DNA of 64,000 bases from Blepharisma japonicum. Its lineage: Eukaryota; Ciliophora; Heterotrichea; Heterotrichida; Blepharismidae. The stretch is from NCBI GenBank assembly GCA_949751835.1, contig CATKHK010000092.1, positions 104,328 through 168,327 of the forward strand, in the 5' to 3' direction. Each line of letters starts with the position of its first letter. Positions within the stretch are counted from its first letter, which is position 1. Made by a program: the position numbers and the translations under genes. The notes under the pieces are model-generated. The model was not told where the DNA came from, made no database searches, and worked only from the letters and a program-made list of their open reading frames with translations. Of the stretch, positions 2,603 to 16,160 are shown piece by piece.

Positions 2603-3679
2603 ATGGAAGACTTTTTCATTTCCCCAAAGCGTGAAAACGCTTCAAAATTTAATCGGAATATTGCAATACTAGGTCTTGTTGGACTTATTGGACTTATTGG
2701 TATAGTTGGAGTTTTCGAATACCCTAAATCCTCGAAAGTTTCTTCAGGCCTTCTTCAATTAGATACTGAAGAAAGAGAGTTCCAAGCCTTCATTAATAAA
2801 TTCCACAAAACATATACCCCAGAAGAGTACCAAATTCGCTTCCAAAATTTCAAAGACAATTTGGCTTTCATCAGAGATCAAAATTCCCAAAACCTTGACT
2901 GGGTCTTAGGTGTTAACCAATTTTCTGACCTCACTTTTGAAGAGTTCAGGAAATTTTACCTCAGTCCTATACAACCTACTTATAATTCTGTCTATAAAGC
3001 TTCGGAAAACTTAAAAATCCCTTCTTCTTGGGATTGGGCTCGAGAAGGAGCTGTAGCCGGACCTTTTTACCAAGGAAAATGCCAAGCTGCTTATGCGTTT
3101 GCAGCTGTAGGAGCTGTTGAAAGCGCTTGGAAAATCTTTAATGGCACCTTAATCCAGCTTTCTGAGCAAGAAGTTGTTGATTGTTCTAAAAATTTTGGAA
3201 ACAATGGATGTAGTGGAGGCTCTATAGATGGTACTTTTAGATATATCATAAAAAATGGTATCACCTCAGATAAAATTTATCCTTATAAGGCAAAAGAAGA
3301 AAAATGCAAAGTCAGTTTAGAATCAGAAAGTGTTGCAGAAATAAGCACTTTTACTGACGTTAATCCTAATGACACAATTAGCTTAGAAAATGCAGTTGCA
3401 GCAGGTCCTGTGGCTACTTATGTCGATGCTAATACTGCTATTTGAATGCATTATCAGGGAGGAGTCGTTACTTCTAATTACTGTGGTACAGACTTAGACC
3501 ATTCTGTGCTGATCACAGGGTATAATCTTACAATGAAGCCAAATTACTGGATTGCGTTAAACTCATGGGGACTGAGTTGGGGTGAGTTTGGATATATCAG
3601 AATTGCTATTAAATCTGGACCTGGCATTTGTGGTATCCAAATGATGCCTTCTTATCCTACAGCGGCAAAAAGAAGTTAA
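2603..3679 (+). CDS. Membrane-anchored cathepsin L-like pseudoprotease (catalytic Cys to Ala)
   Basis: The product has 358 aa from ATG 2603. A short cytoplasmic tail is followed by a hydrophobic Gly/Leu/Ile helix at about 26-44 (signal anchor), an I29 inhibitor-type prodomain (ERFNIN-like, about 62-120) and a papain/C1 domain. One TGA (3443-3445) is Trp: without it the frame would break before MHYQGGVV. The active-site segment reads QGKCQAAYAF where papains have QGxCGSCWAF, so the nucleophilic Cys25 is Ala (codon GCT). Histidine (LDHSVLITGY) and asparagine (ALNSWG) of the catalytic site are kept, as is CSGG. It should fold but not cleave; a binding, regulatory or lysosomal scaffold role is inference. 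Confidence 0.93.
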
Positions 3680-5819: not shown

Positions 5820-6054
5820 ATAAGAGTTATAGCTTGGAATATTTACAAATTAAGGGTAAAATAATTGGGACATATTTTGTAAAGTGGAATAATTAGTACT
5901 TAGCATAAATAAGGCTAGCGACATATAATTATTAAACAAATTATTTATATTCTAATATTTATATTGCAGAGCCTAAATAAATTCATATATGCAAATCTAA
6001 ATTCTTAATTGTTTGAACTTTCTAAGAATAAATTTTATTCATTTAAATATTTCT

Positions 6055-7086
6055 TTAATTCCAAAGCGATGAATCCTCCATCCTTAAATCCTCAAGATAT
6101 TCAACAGGTGAACTATCTTGTTTGAAGTTATTGCTAATCAAAATATTTTCTTGGTCCATGGCATCTGGAATGGAGTCATTGCTAATCAAAATATTTTCTT
6201 GCTCTTGATCCATGGCATCTGGAGCAGTGCGTATAAGCGTTTCATAAGTGTAGTCATCTAAAACCTGTGAGCAATCTATATCTAAAATATTGCTCGAACT
6301 ATTTTCGGTGTTTGATTCATATTTATTTCAACTTAATTCATCAGGTGAATAACAATTTATGTGAGTGCAGGTTTCCGTTTCTGGGTAGATGTCTAAACTA
6401 AACGGACTAGACGATTGAATAGTTGTAGACGATTGAATAGTTGTATCAATAGATGATATATTTTCCGCAAGGGTTTTCTGTTGCTCATCTATTATTTTTA
6501 ATGTATCATTGAGTTCTCTAATTTTATTATCTTGTTCACTTTCTTGTAAACCCTGATTTTCAATCCCAACCTCGGATAGAAATTTTAGTGTTAATCATCA
6601 AATTTTCTTTTTTATGTCTATATTATCTATTTTCGTCTGTATTCTCTGATTAAAAAATTTGTTTAAAAAATCTAAATCAATGCTTTCATGATTTTCTCCG
6701 ATAAGACACTTTGTAAAAGGCTCTATAACATTTTCTTGAAACTGGCTTATTTTTTTTCTTAAATTGCGAATATAAATGATCGAGAATTTTCTCTTCTTGT
6801 CATCGAGTTTCTCTCACTTTCTAATTATATGTTTTGCCAAGAAAATTTGCCCTCCTTCTTTCGTCTGGTGTTTAAGGGATGAATGCATGCGATTTCAAAA
6901 ATCATTGAATTTAGGGTCAGGGTTTTTTTCTTCGAGTACTTTGCGTATTTTGCGATAGAATCTATTTCTCCATGTTTCACCTAGTCGTTTTGGTTTTGTT
7001 CTTTTAAAATGTGTGCTTTGGAATTGAAATAATAACCTAGATATTGGTTCAAGATGCCTTCCAGAATTATATTTTTTGCTTCCCAT
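6055..7086 (-). CDS. Cluster family member A (degenerate AT-hook, acidic tail)
   Basis: The 343-aa frame reads at least five in-frame TGA codons as Trp, including two in a row in KIWWLTLK. The N-terminus is basic (GSKKYNSGRHLEP), where paralogues carry an AT-hook. The shared core spans about 40-165: RNRFYRKIR, PDPKFNDFW, FQENVIEPFTKCLIG and FLNKFFNQ to KIWW. A coiled segment and a Ser/Asp/Glu-rich tail follow. The tail holds two in-frame duplications: a perfect 18-bp tandem (TTIQSS twice) and a repeated unit encoding DAMDQ...ENILISN. Relatives lie at 8395, 9346, 11191 and 13861. A DNA-binding, acidic-tailed regulator is my inference; the family is not one I can name. Confidence 0.85.
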
Positions 7087-8394
7087 ATAAAATTAAAGCT
7101 TCACGAGCATATAATTGATAAAAATTTGCAATAGAGGAACAATATGGCAATACTAGCCTAATAAATTAAATATTTTAAAAATCTTTAAAAAATTGAACTT
7201 GACAATAAAATGATTTAAACAAAAGCAGATTAGTTTTATAAGTATCAAAATATCTAATACTTTAAACCGAATCATTTAAAAATAATTTTTCTCCAATATT
7301 TAATTAATTATCCAATTAAAGGTTTCAAGCTCTTTAATATAGTTTTGATTCATATATTGACTTATTACTAAATGTTAAAAATTAATGATAACTCGTTATC
7401 GAATATATACGTTGTCCTCATCCTGAAGAAACTTAGATCAAAGAGACCTTAGGACATGAGGTCTATTACAACCCCAACTATCTATAAAGAAATTGACCCT
7501 TACTAGCAATCTTGTATCGAAGTAAAAAGAAGACGATATTAAACACAAGATATAGACTCATTGAAGAGTTCTAAGAATTCACCTTCATTTTCTAGGCTTT
7601 AGGCTGTTGACATGATTTTCTTGAAGCACTTAAAGAAATGACAGATTAGAATGGAGCATCGCCCTTCGAGGAAGTAGGGCAACTAAGAGGTTCTATGAAG
7701 AGGTGCGGAAGCAGAAGCCCAGAGAGAAACCAGAGGAGGGGACCGTCCAAGACATTGAGTCAGGCAAGGTTTGACCGGTACTTTGGGTAATTACAAAGGA
7801 GAACCAAGGAGTAAAGCCAATCATGAAGATTGGCACAAAAATGGCTAAGTTAATGAATCATAAAAATGCACTGAGCTAAATTACTAGAAACTCTGCGACC
7901 AATTAATACTAGAAATGGACATCAAACTTAGAGAACTTGAAATATAAAGTGCTCATCCAGTTCAAATACTGAAACAACATTAAAGTATGAGTAAAATGGC
8001 TAAGTCTATAAAGTATAAAAATGCACTGAGCCAAATGGCAAGATTCGCTGATGCAAGCTGAGCATCAGAAATAGATATCAATCATACAGAACTTCAAAAT
8101 GGAAAGTGTTTAGCGAATTCAAACAATTTTATTAAGAAATGATGAAATTTAGACTTTAAGTGAATCCAGAGTGATGCTTGCATCGGGACTGTTACATCTT
8201 ATAAGACTCAGCCAACCTAGACAAGCTAGATAAAGAAGAGCTAGCTAGAATCTATTTCTAAGCCCTTATAGGATATGACTATAGTTAAGTGGGAGATAGA
8301 TGTATTATACTTTTAAAAATAGTAATCGATCTTTTCAGTATATCATTAATTGTCAAATTCATTTCTTATCATGTTGTGCTTAAATAAAATGAAA
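7087..8394. other. GC-richer gene-free block with relic coding signal
   Basis: About 1.3 kb has no intact gene. From about 7640 to 7830 the base composition is near 50% GC, clearly above the neighbourhood. A plus-strand frame there (TGA as Trp) is open for about 80 codons and looks protein-like (RATKRFYEEVRKQKPREKPE). It runs into the first copy of a 156-bp tandem repeat and stops. I see no matching protein family, terminal repeats or tRNA. It may be a decayed gene or mobile element. Confidence 0.45.
7837..8148 (+). repeat. Two diverged tandem copies of a ~156-bp unit
   Basis: Copy 1 starts at 7837 and copy 2 at 7993, both beginning AAAATGGCTAAGT and sharing AAAAATGCACTGAGC. I estimate similarity at about two thirds by eye. 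Copy 2 is open when TGA is Trp (about 77 codons, from ATG 7987 to TAG near 8218), while copy 1 carries TAA where copy 2 has CAA plus a frame change. This looks like a duplicated coding segment with one copy broken. Confidence 0.6.
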
Positions 8395-9231
8395 TTAATT
8401 ATCTAAATAATTATCTATCTCTTCAATATCTTCATCATTTGCTATATTTAAATTTTCCTCAAATTCGTCAGCAAGCCTCAAATCTTCAATACTCTCAATA
8501 CTTGAAGAAATAAAAGTATTGTCCAAATTAATTTCAAATATTCTTTCTTCACTTTCCTTAAGTGAATCAAGGGTAGAGACTAAATCAAGATAATATGAAT
8601 TTTTTTCAGTAATAAATAATGGCTCATCTATTTCTTCCAAATTCGACTTGCGATTCCCTGTTTCGTGGACTGGATTTAAATATTGATAAATATTTACTAG
8701 GTTCATTTTTTGCTCATCGCTATTTTTTTCAGTGTTAGCCAAATCCATTATCAAACCTTTCCATAATTTCTTGCTATTATCAGGCCTTTCAATGCATCTG
8801 TAACTAAATAATGACTCGAGCCTCTCTTCTGCCAATTCCGATAATATTACCCCGAACTCTTGCAGGGCTCTTGAAAAGCAGAGAAAGTGTTTCATTAATT
8901 TTTTACAACTGACCATTGAAAATTGTGCCTTTAGCAGTTTTTCGTCATAAAGCTTGATGTCTGATTTATGGATGAATTTTTTTGGCCACAAATTGGAAAG
9001 AAATAGCTGTGCTAGTTCTGGCTCGACCAATTCCTTGACTCGATTATAGTCTGGATCACTGCAATTGTAAAAAAATGACCTTAAGAGGTTATAAAATTTG
9101 TTGAAAAAGATATTGAGCAATTTTTCGTGCTTTTTCCTTTTCAGCTGAGAAGTTTTAGCTCTCTTTCCTATCTTTTCAAATTTCTCAAGCAAAATAGTGG
9201 TTCTTATGCTCTTAGGTCTGCCTCTTTCCAT
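8395..9231 (-). CDS. Cluster family member B1 (AT-hook, acidic tail)
   Basis: This uninterrupted 278-aa frame begins MERGRPKSIR, a canonical AT-hook core (RGRP flanked by basic residues) at its very N-terminus. The core at 40-165 contains NIFFNKFYNLLRSFF, DPDYNRV, LWPKKFIHK, SCKKLMKHFL, LQEFGVILSE and LWKGLIMDLA. The last 100 residues are Asp/Glu/Ser-rich and end in DEDIEEIDNYLDN. It is closest to the next gene (9346-10167), which lies 114 bp upstream on the same strand. A chromatin- or promoter-binding role is inferred from the AT-hook only. Confidence 0.85.
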   Translation of the reverse strand: MERGRPKSIRTTILLEKFEKIGKRAKTSQLKRKKHEKLLNIFFNKFYNLLRSFFYNCSDPDYNRVKELVEPELAQLFLSNLWPKKFIHKSDIKLYDEKLLKAQFSMVSCKKLMKHFLCFSRALQEFGVILSELAEERLESLFSYRCIERPDNSKKLWKGLIMDLANTEKNSDEQKMNLVNIYQYLNPVHETGNRKSNLEEIDEPLFITEKNSYYLDLVSTLDSLKESEERIFEINLDNTFISSSIESIEDLRLADEFEENLNIANDEDIEEIDNYLDN

Positions 9232-9345
9232 TGATATAAATTATATAGACATGCTAAATCTATAAAAATCTGTTGAATAAAATTAAATAATGATTCCCAA
9301 AGACTTAATTTTTTTAAAAGATTTAATTTTCTAAAAATAATTAAA

Positions 9346-10167
9346 TTAATAAAGATAATAATCACTTTCAAACTCGATATTATCAGAGCAATCTGGGGCT
9401 GATAAATCGCAAAATGTTTCAACGTGACTTTCAAAAAATCTTCCATCATTATCGCCTAATGTGTCGAGGGTTGATACTAATTCCTGATCATATGGATTTT
9501 GTTCATATTTAAACAATTCCTCATATAATATTTGCTGGTCTTGTTCAGGAATATATGTTTCCTCTTGTGTAGTTTGCTCTTGGCTGTTTTCTTCTAAAAT
9601 TGAACTTAGAAACCCATAAGCAAATTCTAAGTTTTGGTTTCTTTCTGCTTCTTTTCCTATATATGCCAAGTCCATGATTAACAAAGTCCATAAATTCTTG
9701 CTATTTCCTGAGATTTTATGAACTTTAAGACATCTGTAATTAAATAATGACTCCAAAGCTTCCTCTGTTTTCTCTGATAATATCTTTCCATACTCTTGCA
9801 GGATAGTTGATAAACAGAGGAATTGAGTCATTAGAAAATTACAACTCTTGGCTGAAAATTGGGCTTTATGGCTTTCAATATTATAAAAAATTTTATCTTC
9901 CTTATGGATAAACTTTTTAGATCAGTGGCAGGAAAGAAATAGCTGATCCCATACTTCTGGCTGAGCCAAGTCTTGAACTCGACTGTATTCTGGATTGCTG
10001 TATTTTTTCCAAAATGATCTGACAAGGTTATAGAACTTATTGAAAAAAATATTAAGGATTTTCTCTGGTTTTTTAATTTCTGACTCAGATTTTTTTATCC
10101 TGTTACCGGTTCTTACAAATTGCTTGAGAAGTTCAAACCTAATGCTCTTTGGCTTGCTTCTTTGCAT
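9346..10167 (-). CDS. Cluster family member B2
   Basis: The 273-aa product is read through one TGA-Trp (CHWSKKFIHK). The N-terminus MQRSKPKSIR aligns with the AT-hook of B1 but has lost the GRP centre (SKP), so minor-groove binding may be weakened. The core matches B1 over its full length: NIFFNKFYNLVRSFW, NPEYSRV, KSCNFLMTQFL, LQEYGKILSE, LESLFNYRC and LWTLLIMDLAY. The acidic tail ends IEFESDYYLY. B1 and B2 form the closest pair of the cluster, consistent with a tandem duplication. Confidence 0.85.
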
Positions 10168-10679
10168 AAAATATATATAGAAATTAAAAAATCTCTAAAA
10201 TTTCTGCACATTAAAATGGCATGAATTGAGGTTGCAGATAAGAACAGAAGAGAATTTATCTGGAAATTGAAAATTTTATAAAAGGAAGATATACAATTAA
10301 TTCAAATTCGATCATTCTACATCAATAGGAAAAAAATCAAAATTTGATGATTTTTTAAAATTTTGAAACATATTATAAAAAAAAATATTTAGTAGAATAG
10401 TGATCTTATTAATTTTGAATAAATGATACTAGATTTAGCCAGCTGTCTAACCTTCCTCCCTTTTTCCCAGATCATACCATTCGAAAAATTCAACATCTTA
10501 TGCAATTCGGGGAAGGCATCAACATCAGCTTGAGCAGGTAATCCAGTTGTCTCTATCACGAATCCTACTGAGCTGGATGCTGAAGACGAAGAGAGATGCA
10601 ATTAACTGCCAATAGCTATTTATAAATATTCTAAATCTATTAAAAATAGTCTCCAATCATACTTTCAATTCTTTATTTT
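10168..10679. other. Intergenic with an isolated 70-codon open frame
   Basis: This lies between member B2 and the pseudogene. The minus-strand stretch 10389-10601 is open for 70 codons and encodes a sequence of less AT-driven composition (GLPAQADVDAFPELHK). It does not align with the tails of the paralogues, and I cannot say what it is. The rest is AT-rich spacer. Confidence 0.3.
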
Positions 10680-11060
10680 AATTAAAAAAATACAATTGAC
10701 AAATAAGGCTTGAGCCAAATTTTTGAGAAATATTAGCTCTGTTGTAATTAAATAGGTACTCCATCTCTCTTCTAAAATAAGATAATAGCATCTAAGGACT
10801 TTAATAATAAGAAGTAATGCCTTAGATTTTTTCAGCTTATCATTGAAATTGAAACTTGAGCTTCTATTCTGCAAAACTTAATCTTTGATTTATATATATT
10901 ATCGAAAATAAAAAGCTATAGTAATCAGATAAATAATTCTTTATAATCGTAATCTGGGCCTTTGATATCCCTAAATAATTTCAAGAAGGCTATAAATATA
11001 ATGAAAAGCTATTGGAAAATGCTTCTTATTTTAGAATTAATCCAAAAAGGCGGGATTTCT
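10680..11060 (-). pseudogene. Broken copy of the cluster family (B type)
   Basis: Translated on the minus strand, this region aligns with the core of B1/B2. IRSIFQ...FIAFLKLFRDIKGPDYDYKELF matches LLNIFFNKFYNLLRSFFYNCSDPDYNRVKEL. EAQVSISMISWKNLRHYF matches KAQFSMVSCKKLMKHF. After a frameshift, EMEYLFNYN...KFGSSLI matches RLESLFSYR...LWKGLI. In-frame TAG codons lie at 11009-11011, 10916-10918 and 10772-10774. The N-terminal AT-hook and the acidic tail are not recognisable. It sits between B2 and member D, as expected for a dead tandem duplicate. Confidence 0.8.
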
Positions 11061-11190
11061 GCTTTTTGATTACCTTTTCCAAATATAATTATCGATATAT
11101 AAACTTTAAAAATGTATAATAAAAACAAATTAATTATTTCCTAAATTATTGTTTTGATTTTTAAATCAATTAGCTTAGACGTCTTCTTTA

Positions 11191-12660
11191 CTAACTGCTA
11201 TTACTATTGATTGAGTCAATTGAAGCGTTTAAATCCTCATAATTGCCTTCATTAATGCTTGCTTGAGTACTGTACGTTTCCAAGTCCTCATCAAGATATG
11301 AATCTCAATTAGTTGTTGGTGTTCTGGAATCCTGAATAAATTTCTCTTCCTGAATTTGTTGAGAAAGAGTATGGCTCTTTGAATCAGCGTTAATATCATC
11401 AAAATGAACCCCCTTTCATTCTTCACAATTGCCATTATGCAAATCTTTATGTTTATTCCTATTTTCCTGATTTTGCTCAGAATTTGATGAGTGCTGAATC
11501 ATCTTATCTTGCTCAGAGATATCTAAATTTTCAATATCCATAGCACTATCTTCTTGTGATTTGAGTTCTATTGAATCTTGTTTATAATCAGTAGAAGATA
11601 AATTAATTTCATTTGTTGGTAAACTTATTATTTACATCGAGCTATTTAATTCAAAGGAAGTTTTCATAGGACTATCTTCATCTTTTTTCTCAGATTCTCT
11701 CGCATTTGAATTGTTCTGTGAAAATAAAACAGAAAACTCATCGTATTCATATGATTCTTGTTCGTATCTGCTTATAAATTTCTTACTATCTTTTTCCGGC
11801 TGTAAGGCATTGCTTTGTTGGCATCCCTCAGCAATTTCTTCCTGAGCGTGCCTAATCTGATAGAAAACTGGACCATAAACATTTTCCTCAAAATAATTCT
11901 CAACTACATCTTCTGTTTTTTTCCTATCAAATCCATCTGAATTATCAGATTGCTCCGTAGTATTAGGTTCATAGTCGATATCTTTACATTCTTTCCTCTT
12001 TTTCTGTGGATTTATCTGAGTTGTCTCTAAAGATGTACTTTTTGTTTCTTCTGATATCGATGAACCAGTATCTCTATCAATGATTGAATCACTTATTTTA
12101 TCTATTAATACTCTAATTTTTTTATCATACTTTGATTCTTCTTTACTTCCAGCTAAGGAATGGCATTTAATCAAATAAAATCATATTTCAGCTCTTCTCT
12201 GAACATCTATATCAATTATTAGTTCTTGATCAAAAAATGCTTTCAAAAATTCTTCATCCACATTTTTTTTACCTTCTGTCCCTACAAGACATTTTATAAA
12301 AGGCTTCATGATCTCTTCTTGAAAAAAATCAATCTTTTTTCTAATTGATGAAATTAGTGATTTCGAAACTTCAGCTTTTCTGTTAATACTTCTCATTTCA
12401 GTAATTATATAGATTGGCAAAGGAATTTTTCCTTGTGCAGTAGTTAATGTTTTTTCGTTAAGGCTTTCGAAAAAATCATTAAATCTTGGATCACGGTTAG
12501 AATCAAAAATCACATTTATCAGTAGTCAGAAAATTGTCTGATATCATCATGTGTGACGAGATTTTCTTTTCCGTTGTATTTCACTTTTTGTGGATCTAAA
12601 ATATTTCTCTAATTCAGAAACAGTATGCCGAGGTCTTCCACTCATATTATGAATTTCCAT
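11191..12660 (-). CDS. Cluster family member D, with an in-frame TAA near two-thirds
   Basis: The frame starts at Met 12660 (or 12645) with MSGRPRHT, an AT-hook-like GRP. The core spans 35-165: DPRFNDFF, SIRKKIDFFQEEIMKPFIKCLVG, EEFLKAFFDQ and EIWFYLIK. A long Ser/Asp/Glu tail follows. Several TGA codons are Trp. At 11632-11634 an in-frame TAA interrupts the tail, yet the same frame stays open for about 146 more codons of matching acidic, Ser-rich composition to TAG 11191. Removing the 12 bases 11624-11635 (GTAAATAATAAG) would restore the frame, but that is shorter than any intron seen elsewhere here. Either the protein ends at 11632 (342 aa), or it reaches about 485 aa by splicing or readthrough. 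Confidence 0.75.
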
Positions 12661-13860
12661 ATGAGTTCTTAATGCTCTTCATTATATGCATATAATATTG
12701 ATAAAAGAGTGGAATAATGGCGAATGAGCTATATGTCTAACATATACGTTAAATAAAAATTTTAGATATAGTCATATTTTGATAAAGCCAACAAAAAAAT
12801 TAAGAATGATAATTGAAAAATCCCTCGCTTGGTTGGTGGTTTTGCGCCAATTAATTGGGTTTTTAAAATCGCTAGCCATCTTCGAACTTTTTGCAAATGA
12901 CCAGTGCAAAGCGATGAGAGCAAAGCAAACTTTTATTTAGGTAAGAAAAGCGACGTGCAACAAATGAAAGAAGGACCCTGGAACTTGAGGATGTTATTTG
13001 TGTAAACACTCCGGCATTAGTTAAATTGTCTAAACGATGATCTTGGGTGAGTTCTATTACTCTAATTGTGCGCCAGTAATATCTGATCTGAATATAGCAT
13101 ATTTCACAACTGGAAAATCATTCTGAAGCGTACTTCCTGGTACAGCGAAAGGGGTTGCCTAGTGATTCTTAGGCTTGACAGAAAAGTTGAATAAAGTAAA
13201 ATAAATAAGTATTATAAAAGCAAGTATATCTAAGTTTTTCATTTCCCCAAATTCATTATTAGCATATTAAAAATAAAGCTAATTCAATATTTCAATTACT
13301 ATCTATTTATAAGTCTATTAGAGCATTACCATTATGATAACCAATTGATATAAAATATTTAAGACTGGTGATTTAATATATGCCATTTCATACATAGGCT
13401 ATAATTATAGAAATCTATAAAACCATATTTCTTATTTTGCCTGATAGATGACCAAAACTAAAGTGACTCAAAGAATATTGAGCTAAATAAATTACTAGAC
13501 ATAACATTGAGAAGTATATCTTCCAATTTCCTTCTCTTTTGCTTTTTACTGGAAATTGTGCTTCGAAGGTAGAAAAATGATCCAGATTAGTTTAGGAGAT
13601 CTTTCAATCATTAAAATTTCCATATAAGGATTTCTTTATAATTTCAGGATGAAGGAGCTAAAAATTATTATGATAGATCAAAAGTTTAAAATAGTTGAAT
13701 AAAATTAGGGGCAAGAGTTCTTCAAAACCTCTTAAAGATAAATTTGGTATTGCCAATTAAAATAACCGAGACAAAAAACAGATAAGTTTTGTGTGATCTT
13801 ATTTTTTCTGTCTAAAATTGTTTATATTAAGGATAAATTTTATTCAACTTTCTCAATTAC
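12661..13860. other. Gene-free block between family members D and E
   Basis: About 1.2 kb has no intact gene. The part 12830-13190 is noticeably less AT-rich than its surroundings but gives no long frame; the best is a 60-70-codon minus-strand frame starting MASDFKNPINWRKTTNQ. The part 13440-13620, read on the minus strand, contains KKQKRRKLEDILLN followed by SNLFSSIFFES. That faintly echoes the family N-terminal core and could be a further decayed copy, but the resemblance is weak. Confidence 0.35.
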
Positions 13861-14946
13861 TTAATAAAATGTCTCGAATTCGTCAAAATAGTCTCCATTC
13901 ATATCTCCACCTGTTATTAAAGTATCGAAATTGTTGCTATCTGGATTACGGTCATTTTCCATAAAAATTTCTCCCTGTCCTGCATTTAAATCTTGGAAAA
14001 TATCATACTTTTCCATGTCTCGTGCCTGAATTGCGTTAGATTTGCTATCAGTTGTTTGATCAAAGACTTCTTGGTCTGGTGATCCAAAAAAAGAAAAATC
14101 TTTATCATTTTTAAGGTTCTCTTCAATCCTTGGATTGAAAATTGATGACTCCTTCTCTAAAATTACACCTAAATCAATATTTGTCCCTTCTTTTGCTGAG
14201 CTCTTTCCCAGTGGATCTGATTGAATATCTGTAATGCTTGGGCGATATGATTCCTCGATTGAGGTTTCATAGCTATAAGGATCTATATCACATTTTCCAT
14301 TTAGTTTGCATAACAGCTTTTCAATTTTTCTCATTCTTAAATTGCGTCCAGTCTCTACACCGACAAAGGAAAGATGATCAGAAATCAATGAATTTCATAT
14401 TTCCTGCCTTATTTCTTTATTATATATACTATCACAGTCTTGCTGAAAAACTGAGTTTAGAAATGATTCATTAAAGCATGTCTCTTTCATTTGGCCTAGA
14501 AGGCATTTTACAAATACATTTATTACTTCTTGAAAGCCAGGAATGTAATCTCTCAATTCCTTGCAGCAATTAATAGTAAGCTTGGTTTTATTTTTATCAT
14601 AATTAGTGAATATTTCTTTTCCTTGTTTTTTCAAAAAACTTATAGGCCACAGTGGGCATCCAAGAATAGCAAGCAAATATTTTTTTGAATCATCGTCTCC
14701 ATTAGCATTTTTCTGATTTTCATTCACCCTACAGCCTTCAACATAACTATAAAAATCGCTAAATCTGCAATCAAAATCGTTCCAAAGATGATATCTAAGC
14801 AATTTATTATGCAGGAGTTTGAAAAATTTATTTATTCACATTTCGTTGTTTCCTTTCATACTTTTCAGCTTGCGGCCTGTTCTTGTACTTGTGAATTGCT
14901 TGAATAATTCAGCAATTGGTAATGGTGGTCGTCCCCTATTTTTCAT
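13861..14946 (-). CDS. Cluster family member E (canonical AT-hook, acidic tail)
   Basis: The product is 361 aa, read through TGA-Trp at NEMWINKFF and EIWNSLISD. It starts MKNRGRPPLP, a textbook AT-hook. Its core links the two subgroups: CPLWPISFLKKQ and NCCKELRDY resemble B1/B2, whereas GFQEVINVFVKCLLG, SFLNSVFQQ and EIWNSLI resemble A and D. The acidic C-terminus ends GDYFDEFETFY. It is the most distal member on the minus strand, followed by a coiled-coil gene. Function is inferred only from the AT-hook and the acidic tail. Confidence 0.85.
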
Positions 14947-15059: not shown

Positions 15060-16160
15060 CTATTGCATAGCGCAAGAATGAGTGGCACATTGCTCTGCAT
15101 GAAAATCTGCGATAATCTCCCTTATTTTAGTTAGAGAAGATTTGATAATTGAAATATTTTGATTAATTTGTTTTGCTGTAAATTGTGGGTTTATGTCTTC
15201 ATCTTCTAATCCTAGAACCAATTTTAAGCTTACTTGTTTTTCTTCTTTTAGAGTTTCAAGAACTATAAGCACTTGGCTTATGTCTTTTTTTATATTTCGT
15301 ATATCATTTGCAAAATAAATAAGCCCTAAATGGTCTCCGTTTGAATTATATGTTTTTAATTCTTGCTTTAAAGTTTCATTTTCTGAAATTAGTCGGTTTT
15401 GCATGTCCTCAAGTTCTCTAAATTGCATCTCTAGATTTTCATATTCTGACTGATCGATATTTATCTTCATTTTTAGAGTATCGCTTTCTTGCGTTGCATT
15501 TTTGATATTCTCTTTATGCTCTGCTAAGACTTTTCCTTTTTGTAATTCGTATTCCATCTGATTTATTTTCTTATCTTTTTCGCTAATAATTTTTTTTAAA
15601 TTTGATATTTCCGCTTTATACTTGGCTTTTACATTTTCTTCAAGGTTATTCACATTAATTTCAATTTCATCACTTGAAGATTTGTCTCACCTTTCAGAAC
15701 TACCAGAAAGAGTTGAAGAATCTGAAATTGAATATTTTACAATATTTTCTTTTAGCTTTAAGTTCTCTTTTTCAAGGTTTTTAGATTTTATTTTGTAATA
15801 TTCCATTTTATTTTTGACTTTTTTTAAGTATTCGTTCATTTGTGAGGCATTTTCGTGCAGTTTTTGATCATCTTTTATATGTGATAGAGCGTTTTTTGCA
15901 TAAGATATGACTTCACTGGTTTCGTATTTTCTTCGAGGAGAGGGTGAAGCATTGGAGCTCTGATTTGCTGAGGACTCAGGGGATTTATAGCGAGTCTTTT
16001 TCAGTGATGTTAAATGTGCTGGGATATAAAATGAATGAGATGGCGGTTTTGACATTGATCTAGCTGGATATATTGCAGATGAGTTCACCTTAATAGTAGA
16101 ATGATTGCCGGTATTTAGATTTTGAAGAGAAACCTCTGGGTATTTTATGGTTTTTGACAT
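15060..16160 (-). CDS. Coiled-coil protein
   Basis: The 366-aa product is read through a TGA-Trp after SGSSER. Residues 1-90 are Ser/Pro/Lys-rich and probably disordered. Residues of about 95-145 and 165-270 form strong heptad coiled coil (EYLKKVKNKMEYYKIK, KKIISEKDKKINQMEYELQ). The C-terminal 90 residues are more mixed and end in HAEQCATHSCAMQ. The layout fits a cytoskeletal or basal-body structural protein, but no family is recognised. Confidence 0.8.

Follow-up and report, generated by a model that had tools for sequence, protein, structure and literature searches.

The window analysed here, a 64,000-nucleotide stretch of Blepharisma japonicum DNA from contig C92 (positions 104,328-168,327) with a GC content of about 31-36%, includes five related genes in tandem on the minus strand, named A, B1, B2, D and E. 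A, B1, B2 and E are uninterrupted single frames located precisely where a first-pass annotation had put them when TGA is read as Trp. TGA has to be Trp in all of the five but B1, which contains none, and B. stoltei likewise decodes UGA as Trp according to the available text of PMC9942806. The genes, their N-terminal arms and the neighboring features referred to below are as follows.

2603-3679: cysteine-protease gene (Pfam); its partner on contig C23 borders the interval of member F
6055-7086, minus strand: member A, 343 aa, open frame with TGA as Trp; held-out profile score 88 bits
6115-6204, minus strand: two tandem 42-nt copies, spacing 48 nt, within the acidic tail of A; 86% identity, repeat family D4
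7054-7065, minus strand: degenerate arm of A, SGRH
8395-9231, minus strand: member B1, 278 aa, open frame; B. stoltei orthologue P0007; AlphaFold2 model
9214-9225, minus strand: arm of B1, RGRP
9346-10167, minus strand: member B2, 273 aa, open frame; B. stoltei orthologue P0006
10150-10161, minus strand: degenerate arm of B2, RSKP
11191-12660, minus strand: member D, 342 aa up to the first stop and, in frame behind it, 146 further residues; orthologous to P0011 of B. stoltei (501 aa)
11632-11634, minus strand: in-frame TAA inside D; the tail behind it is homologous to P0011
12631-12642, minus strand: arm of D, SGRP
13861-14946, minus strand: member E, 361 aa, open frame; held-out profile score 90 bits
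14926-14937, minus strand: arm of E, RGRP
15060-16160, minus strand: flanking gene outside the family, without a Pfam family, that anchors the block described below; its partner, 57-60% identical, flanks F on C23

The gene at 15060-16160 belongs to a family of its own, found at nine places in the genome at E ≤1e-3, itself included.

The outer limits annotated for member D hold, as the 146 residues past the TAA match the tail of P0011 (E 9e-12 in a two-sequence comparison), but its frame is not clean. The TAA may be a premature stop, an assembly error or a sign of unusual splicing, such as an unusually short (12-bp) intron; the introns of B. stoltei are mostly 15-16 bp according to the available text of PMC9942806, and the sole GT...AG spanning the TAA that was spotted by eye is 12 bp. 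Among the signs of pseudogenes, only this TAA points that way. The pseudogenes that had been proposed were not recovered between the genes: when six spacers were searched with the proteins of 12 family sequences, the best match had E 0.019 and covered 35 residues of the opposite strand. Two spacer parts searched as DNA, 7450-8330 and 12700-13840, are single-copy in the genome. The internal duplication that had also been proposed is present as the two 42-nt copies in the tail of A.

The relationship among the five genes was evaluated with pairwise comparisons of the front plus core, using 300 shuffles per pair. The z scores were 62 for B1-B2, 29 for A-D, 19 for A-E, 17 for D-E and 13 for E-B2, and lower for B1-E (6.5), A-B2 (6.3), A-B1 (5.0, with at least one shuffle outscoring the real pair), B1-D (2.7) and B2-D (0). 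Because of these low scores the A/D subtype is not convincingly tied to B1/B2 by direct comparison, and it is E, linked to both, that bridges the two subtypes as had been anticipated. Profiles built with one subgroup omitted at a time scored every one of 12 sequences at 52-155 bits, and 500 shuffles of each reached at most 15 bits; the omitted subgroups were still recovered at E 7e-14 to 3e-45. Judged by these profiles, the five genes of the array are true paralogues.

Searches of the 45.2-Mb, 224-contig assembly with B1, A, E, H, F and D as queries revealed three more members on three other contigs, and two weak places, on C41 (E 0.12) and C2 (E 0.117), were left uncounted.

C23:379973-380818: member F, KGRP near the N-terminus
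C51, L004:1294-2031, minus strand: member G, RGRP near the N-terminus
C36, L010:1333-2001, minus strand: member H, RGRP near the N-terminus

These comparisons strongly support a family with eight or more members spread over four contigs, eight being a lower bound as the searches scored the best candidates only. The tandem family of the first-pass annotation stands as an array of five and falls as a tandem cluster only; the array is one side of a large duplicated block. In searches of 5.8 billion proteins, four distinct matches were obtained, all from B. stoltei and orthologous to B1, B2, D and F; no relatives outside Blepharisma were found, nor did one scan each of viral and of prokaryotic contigs with F detect a relative. 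The first of these protein searches used a 190-residue query under a length rule that hides proteins longer than about 332 aa, the second scored the 7,997 candidates sharing most words, and the third scored all 6,077 candidates. This word-based procedure, which can miss relatives diverged like D (about 45% identity), turned up no B. stoltei orthologue of A, E, G or H. The family may be absent outside Blepharisma, which these matches suggest weakly, and they do not show the heterotrich-wide expansion that had been envisaged.

Pfam, NCBIfam, PHROGs and the PDB sequences contained no convincing known family, so that the core, which could have been placed in a known family by its profile, received no placement in the libraries at hand and the family keeps its standing as an undescribed one; no title or abstract opening on it was found in the open PMC literature. 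Several matches were discarded as chance because each concerned a single member and they were of unrelated kinds: nine PDB sequences of nucleoside diphosphate kinase (E 0.028-0.036) and one of a viral glycoprotein (E 0.06), all with H, one NCBIfam beta-lactamase model (E 0.0058), eight PHROGs matches (best E 0.0021) and six Pfam families (best E 0.013).

All five genes of the array share the architecture that had been described for them, in which a basic N-terminus, with a GRP in most cases, is followed by a shared core and then by an acidic tail. In the alignment the front consists of a GRP in most sequences, followed by L-x-x-x-F and a basic stretch. The GRP is located at the very N-terminus in six of the eight members of this genome, as [R/K]GRP in five and as SGRP in D; A and B2 are degenerate, as is the B. 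stoltei orthologue of B2. The count of three intact motifs in the array (RGRP in B1 and E, SGRP in D) and two degenerate ones (SGRH in A, RSKP in B2) thus agrees with the original one. Among the Pfam matches of 10 members at E values up to 5 the AT_hook model did not appear, short models being easily lost. The core, of about 140 residues, includes a F-[F/Y]-x-x-F-Y helix and a W-P-K-x-F-[I/L]-x-K block (in A/D degenerate or missing), together with a single invariant K, L-E/N-x-x-F, W-x-x-L-I and L-[A/S]-x-x-G. Structure models of B1 and F predict a helical domain in this region, confidently for F; the five models agreed poorly for B1 (mean pLDDT 44-59) and better for F (60-65, disordered tail included). 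These predictions lend moderate support to a helical core. The model of the F core had no convincing match among PDB structures, and no known DNA-binding fold was retrieved with VIA-align; the missing match is no evidence for a new fold, which is weakly supported.

The tail is disordered, mostly acidic, and ends in acidic and aromatic residues. Its charge past residue 180 is -14 to -36 in 10 of 12 sequences and near neutral in G (-2) and H (-5). When the family was compared with 59 non-family ORFs of at least 180 aa taken from the window and five further stretches, using charge and aromatic thresholds that were picked with the family in view and family sequences that are related and hence not independent, a net charge of +7 or more in the first 45 residues was found in 11 of 12 family sequences and 3 of 59 controls, a C-terminal end of 25 residues with a charge of -4 or lower in 11 of 12 and about 2 of 59, and the latter together with at least three aromatics in 10 of 12 and about 2 of 59. 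None of the 59 controls had [RKSL]GRP within its first 20 residues. D read to its TAA misses both the front-charge and the end-charge thresholds (-2 in its last 25 residues).

B1, B2 and F are about 83-85% identical overall to their B. stoltei orthologues. The identities in front, core and tail are 44/45, 119/140 and 64/90 for B1, 43/45, 125/140 and 63/88 for B2, and 44/45, 118/135 and 71/101 for F, so that in these three pairs conservation decreases from the first 45 residues (96-98%) to the core (85-89%) and the tail (70-72%). This strongly indicates that order of constraint, which is much the tightest on the front in three of the four orthologue pairs. D, about 45% identical to its orthologue (front 24/44, core 74/153, tail 53/137), is by this comparison diverging throughout; the 160 gap columns in its tail are the result of D being cut at its TAA. 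Among paralogues, with dS near saturation in all pairs (and saturated for B1/F), dN and dS were 0.28 and 1.50 for G/H, 0.41 and 1.37 for B1/B2, and 0.75 and 1.74 for A/D, the front of A/D by itself being near parity (0.96 and 1.02). The dN/dS of G/H climbs from the front (0.11/1.57) through the core (0.24/1.34) to the tail (0.85/2.53).

ORFs of at least 100 aa from C23:330-400k (65 ORFs) were compared with those from C92:84-168k (68 ORFs), and best pairs with E ≤1e-8 were retained. This comparison (C92:84400-104400 plus the window against C23:330000-400000) identified 22 gene pairs, all 22 on opposite strands, collinear (Spearman -0.98) and with a median identity of 66%, which strongly suggests a duplicated block. 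F is located between the partners of the 15060-16160 and 2603-3679 genes, the same interval that here holds the five-gene array; the remaining genes of the interval differ between the two blocks. Two further gene pairs, 65-67% identical, are common to the surroundings of G and H. The block looks like the product of a whole-genome or large segmental duplication in Blepharisma, and it fits the 1,722 duplications inferred from transcriptomes for the Blepharisma ancestor in the portion of PMC10810533 available to us; in the available text of PMC9942806, the term whole-genome duplication occurs in the reference list only. In the block comparison F, lacking 27 bases at the edge of the stretch, was 36% identical to its best partner in the array (in the own-genome search it matched B1 at 44% over 249 F residues). 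Since the next in-order pair is 52% identical (one out-of-order pair is at 32%), the family diverges faster than its collinear neighbors, and the rapid divergence that had been proposed was borne out by these identities together with those between species.

For the B. stoltei orthologues of B1, B2 and D the longest contig given is in each case one of 1,108,635 bases, and for that of F it is one of 860,636 bases. As the first three share one value and F has another, the array and the single-copy F are probably older than the split of the two species. The best tree grouped F with B1/B2 (72/76), and an alternative that unites the array members and their orthologues stays unrejected (p-AU 0.136); the tree is made uncertain by the long branches that E, A and D of B. 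stoltei have in it. The array may have formed after the block duplication or before it.

The layout of front, core and tail suggests, by analogy, a regulator of transcription. In this view the N-terminal arm with its [R/K]GRP would occupy, together with the basic stretch that follows, the minor groove of AT-rich DNA; an extra DNA contact or dimerisation would come from the compact helical core, and the disordered, aromatic-tipped acidic tail would recruit the transcription machinery as an acidic activation domain. We tentatively favor, at somewhat less than an even chance, a small fast-evolving family of nuclear transcription regulators, so far seen in Blepharisma only. This is favored by the GRP of six of the eight members, the basic front, the acidic aromatic end, the conservation of the front above all other parts in B1, B2 and F, the rise of dN/dS from front to tail in G/H and the predicted helical core; against it count the degenerate arm of A, B2 and the B2 orthologue, the near-neutral tails of G and H, the unreported Pfam AT-hook, the position of D below the thresholds and the lack of a DNA-binding fold among the VIA-align results. 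That A and B2 have lost the arm may reflect the use of partners or a changed function. What these analogies weakly suggest about function could be extended to a new, Blepharisma-private class of DNA-binding regulators combining a GRP minor-groove arm with an acidic activation tail and a helical core whose fold is unrecorded, and represented by one gene in one copy of the duplicated block and by five rapidly diverging paralogues in the other, a possibility that we regard as unlikely.

Proteins acting as architects of chromatin rather than as activators would also combine a GRP arm in a basic front with an acidic tail, bending or marking AT-rich DNA like HMGA while the tail tunes contacts with histones or with themselves. 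The base composition of the window is in line with this idea. HMGA, the type example of the AT-hook proteins, has several AT hooks and no folded domain; the proteins described here have by our reading one arm each, and a helical core is predicted for B1 and F, and we consider such a role rather improbable. AT-hook proteins in general resemble the family in the [R/K]GRP core within a basic stretch and in the acidic tail, and differ from it in that here the single arm is always N-terminal and joined to a conserved helical core, with the Pfam model unreported. Two of the eight members have lost the arm and retained the core, and no DNA-binding family was matched in Pfam, which would suit regulators that bind RNA or protein rather than DNA, with the basic front contacting RNA or serving as a localisation signal and the core used for interactions; six of eight retain the GRP at its N-terminal place, in the part that is best conserved in three of four orthologue pairs, and we give this a still smaller chance. 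A part in macronuclear development, such as marking AT-rich DNA for programmed DNA elimination, is in keeping with the ciliate context and with the strong upregulation of chromatin and DNA-repair genes at 26 h of development given in the available text of PMC9942806, but none of the analyses carried out here linked the family to the process, which the first-pass annotation had offered as inference, and it appears very improbable. Tandem copies with a DNA-binding-like front could also be remnants of a mobile element, the DNA-binding part of a transposase amplified locally, an origin that seems the least probable of all: no more than eight copies were found, these are spread over four contigs and F is in block synteny, both spacer stretches that were searched as DNA occur once in the genome, the dN/dS of G/H and B1/B2 is below 1, and, unlike in domesticated transposases, no transposase family was present among the Pfam matches of five and ten members.

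Acidic-activator transcription factors as a general class have a folded middle and a disordered acidic, aromatic tail. The putative Blepharisma regulators resemble them in a predicted folded middle and in such a tail, the latter judged by composition, and differ in a core that matches no known DNA-binding domain in Pfam or the PDB sequences. To our knowledge, few regulators of heterotrich ciliates have been characterised. With at least eight members, a clear domain logic and a duplicated block, the family offers candidates for how a genus acquires nuclear regulators of its own, and the single-copy F and the five-gene array allow the aftermath of a duplication to be compared directly. From the original interpretation, an undescribed fast-evolving family with a basic N-terminus, a common core and an acidic tail is retained, and the tandem-only arrangement, the heterotrich-wide expansion and the spacer pseudogenes are not. 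The family also resembles the young lineage-specific ciliate families of the Blepharisma duplication pulse (PMC10810533) in being genus-restricted within a genome with large-scale duplication, although that study is a transcriptome-scale survey and the family is not met in the portion of its text available to us. The 22-pair block provides genomic support for the large duplication that, in the same portion, is placed in the Blepharisma ancestor.

Flanking sequences shared among members are suggestive at most, as 3 of 56 comparisons (28 upstream and 28 downstream) had p <0.01 by 300 shuffles. The 3' flanks of A (6007-6041) and E (13816-13846) have 19 nt in common with one mismatch, at a near-equal distance from the stop; in this one of the 56 comparisons the 300 shuffles gave p 0.003. 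The A-B1 spacer includes two 58-nt copies, 79% alike, at 7838-7895 and 7993-8050, inside the single-copy segment 7450-8330.
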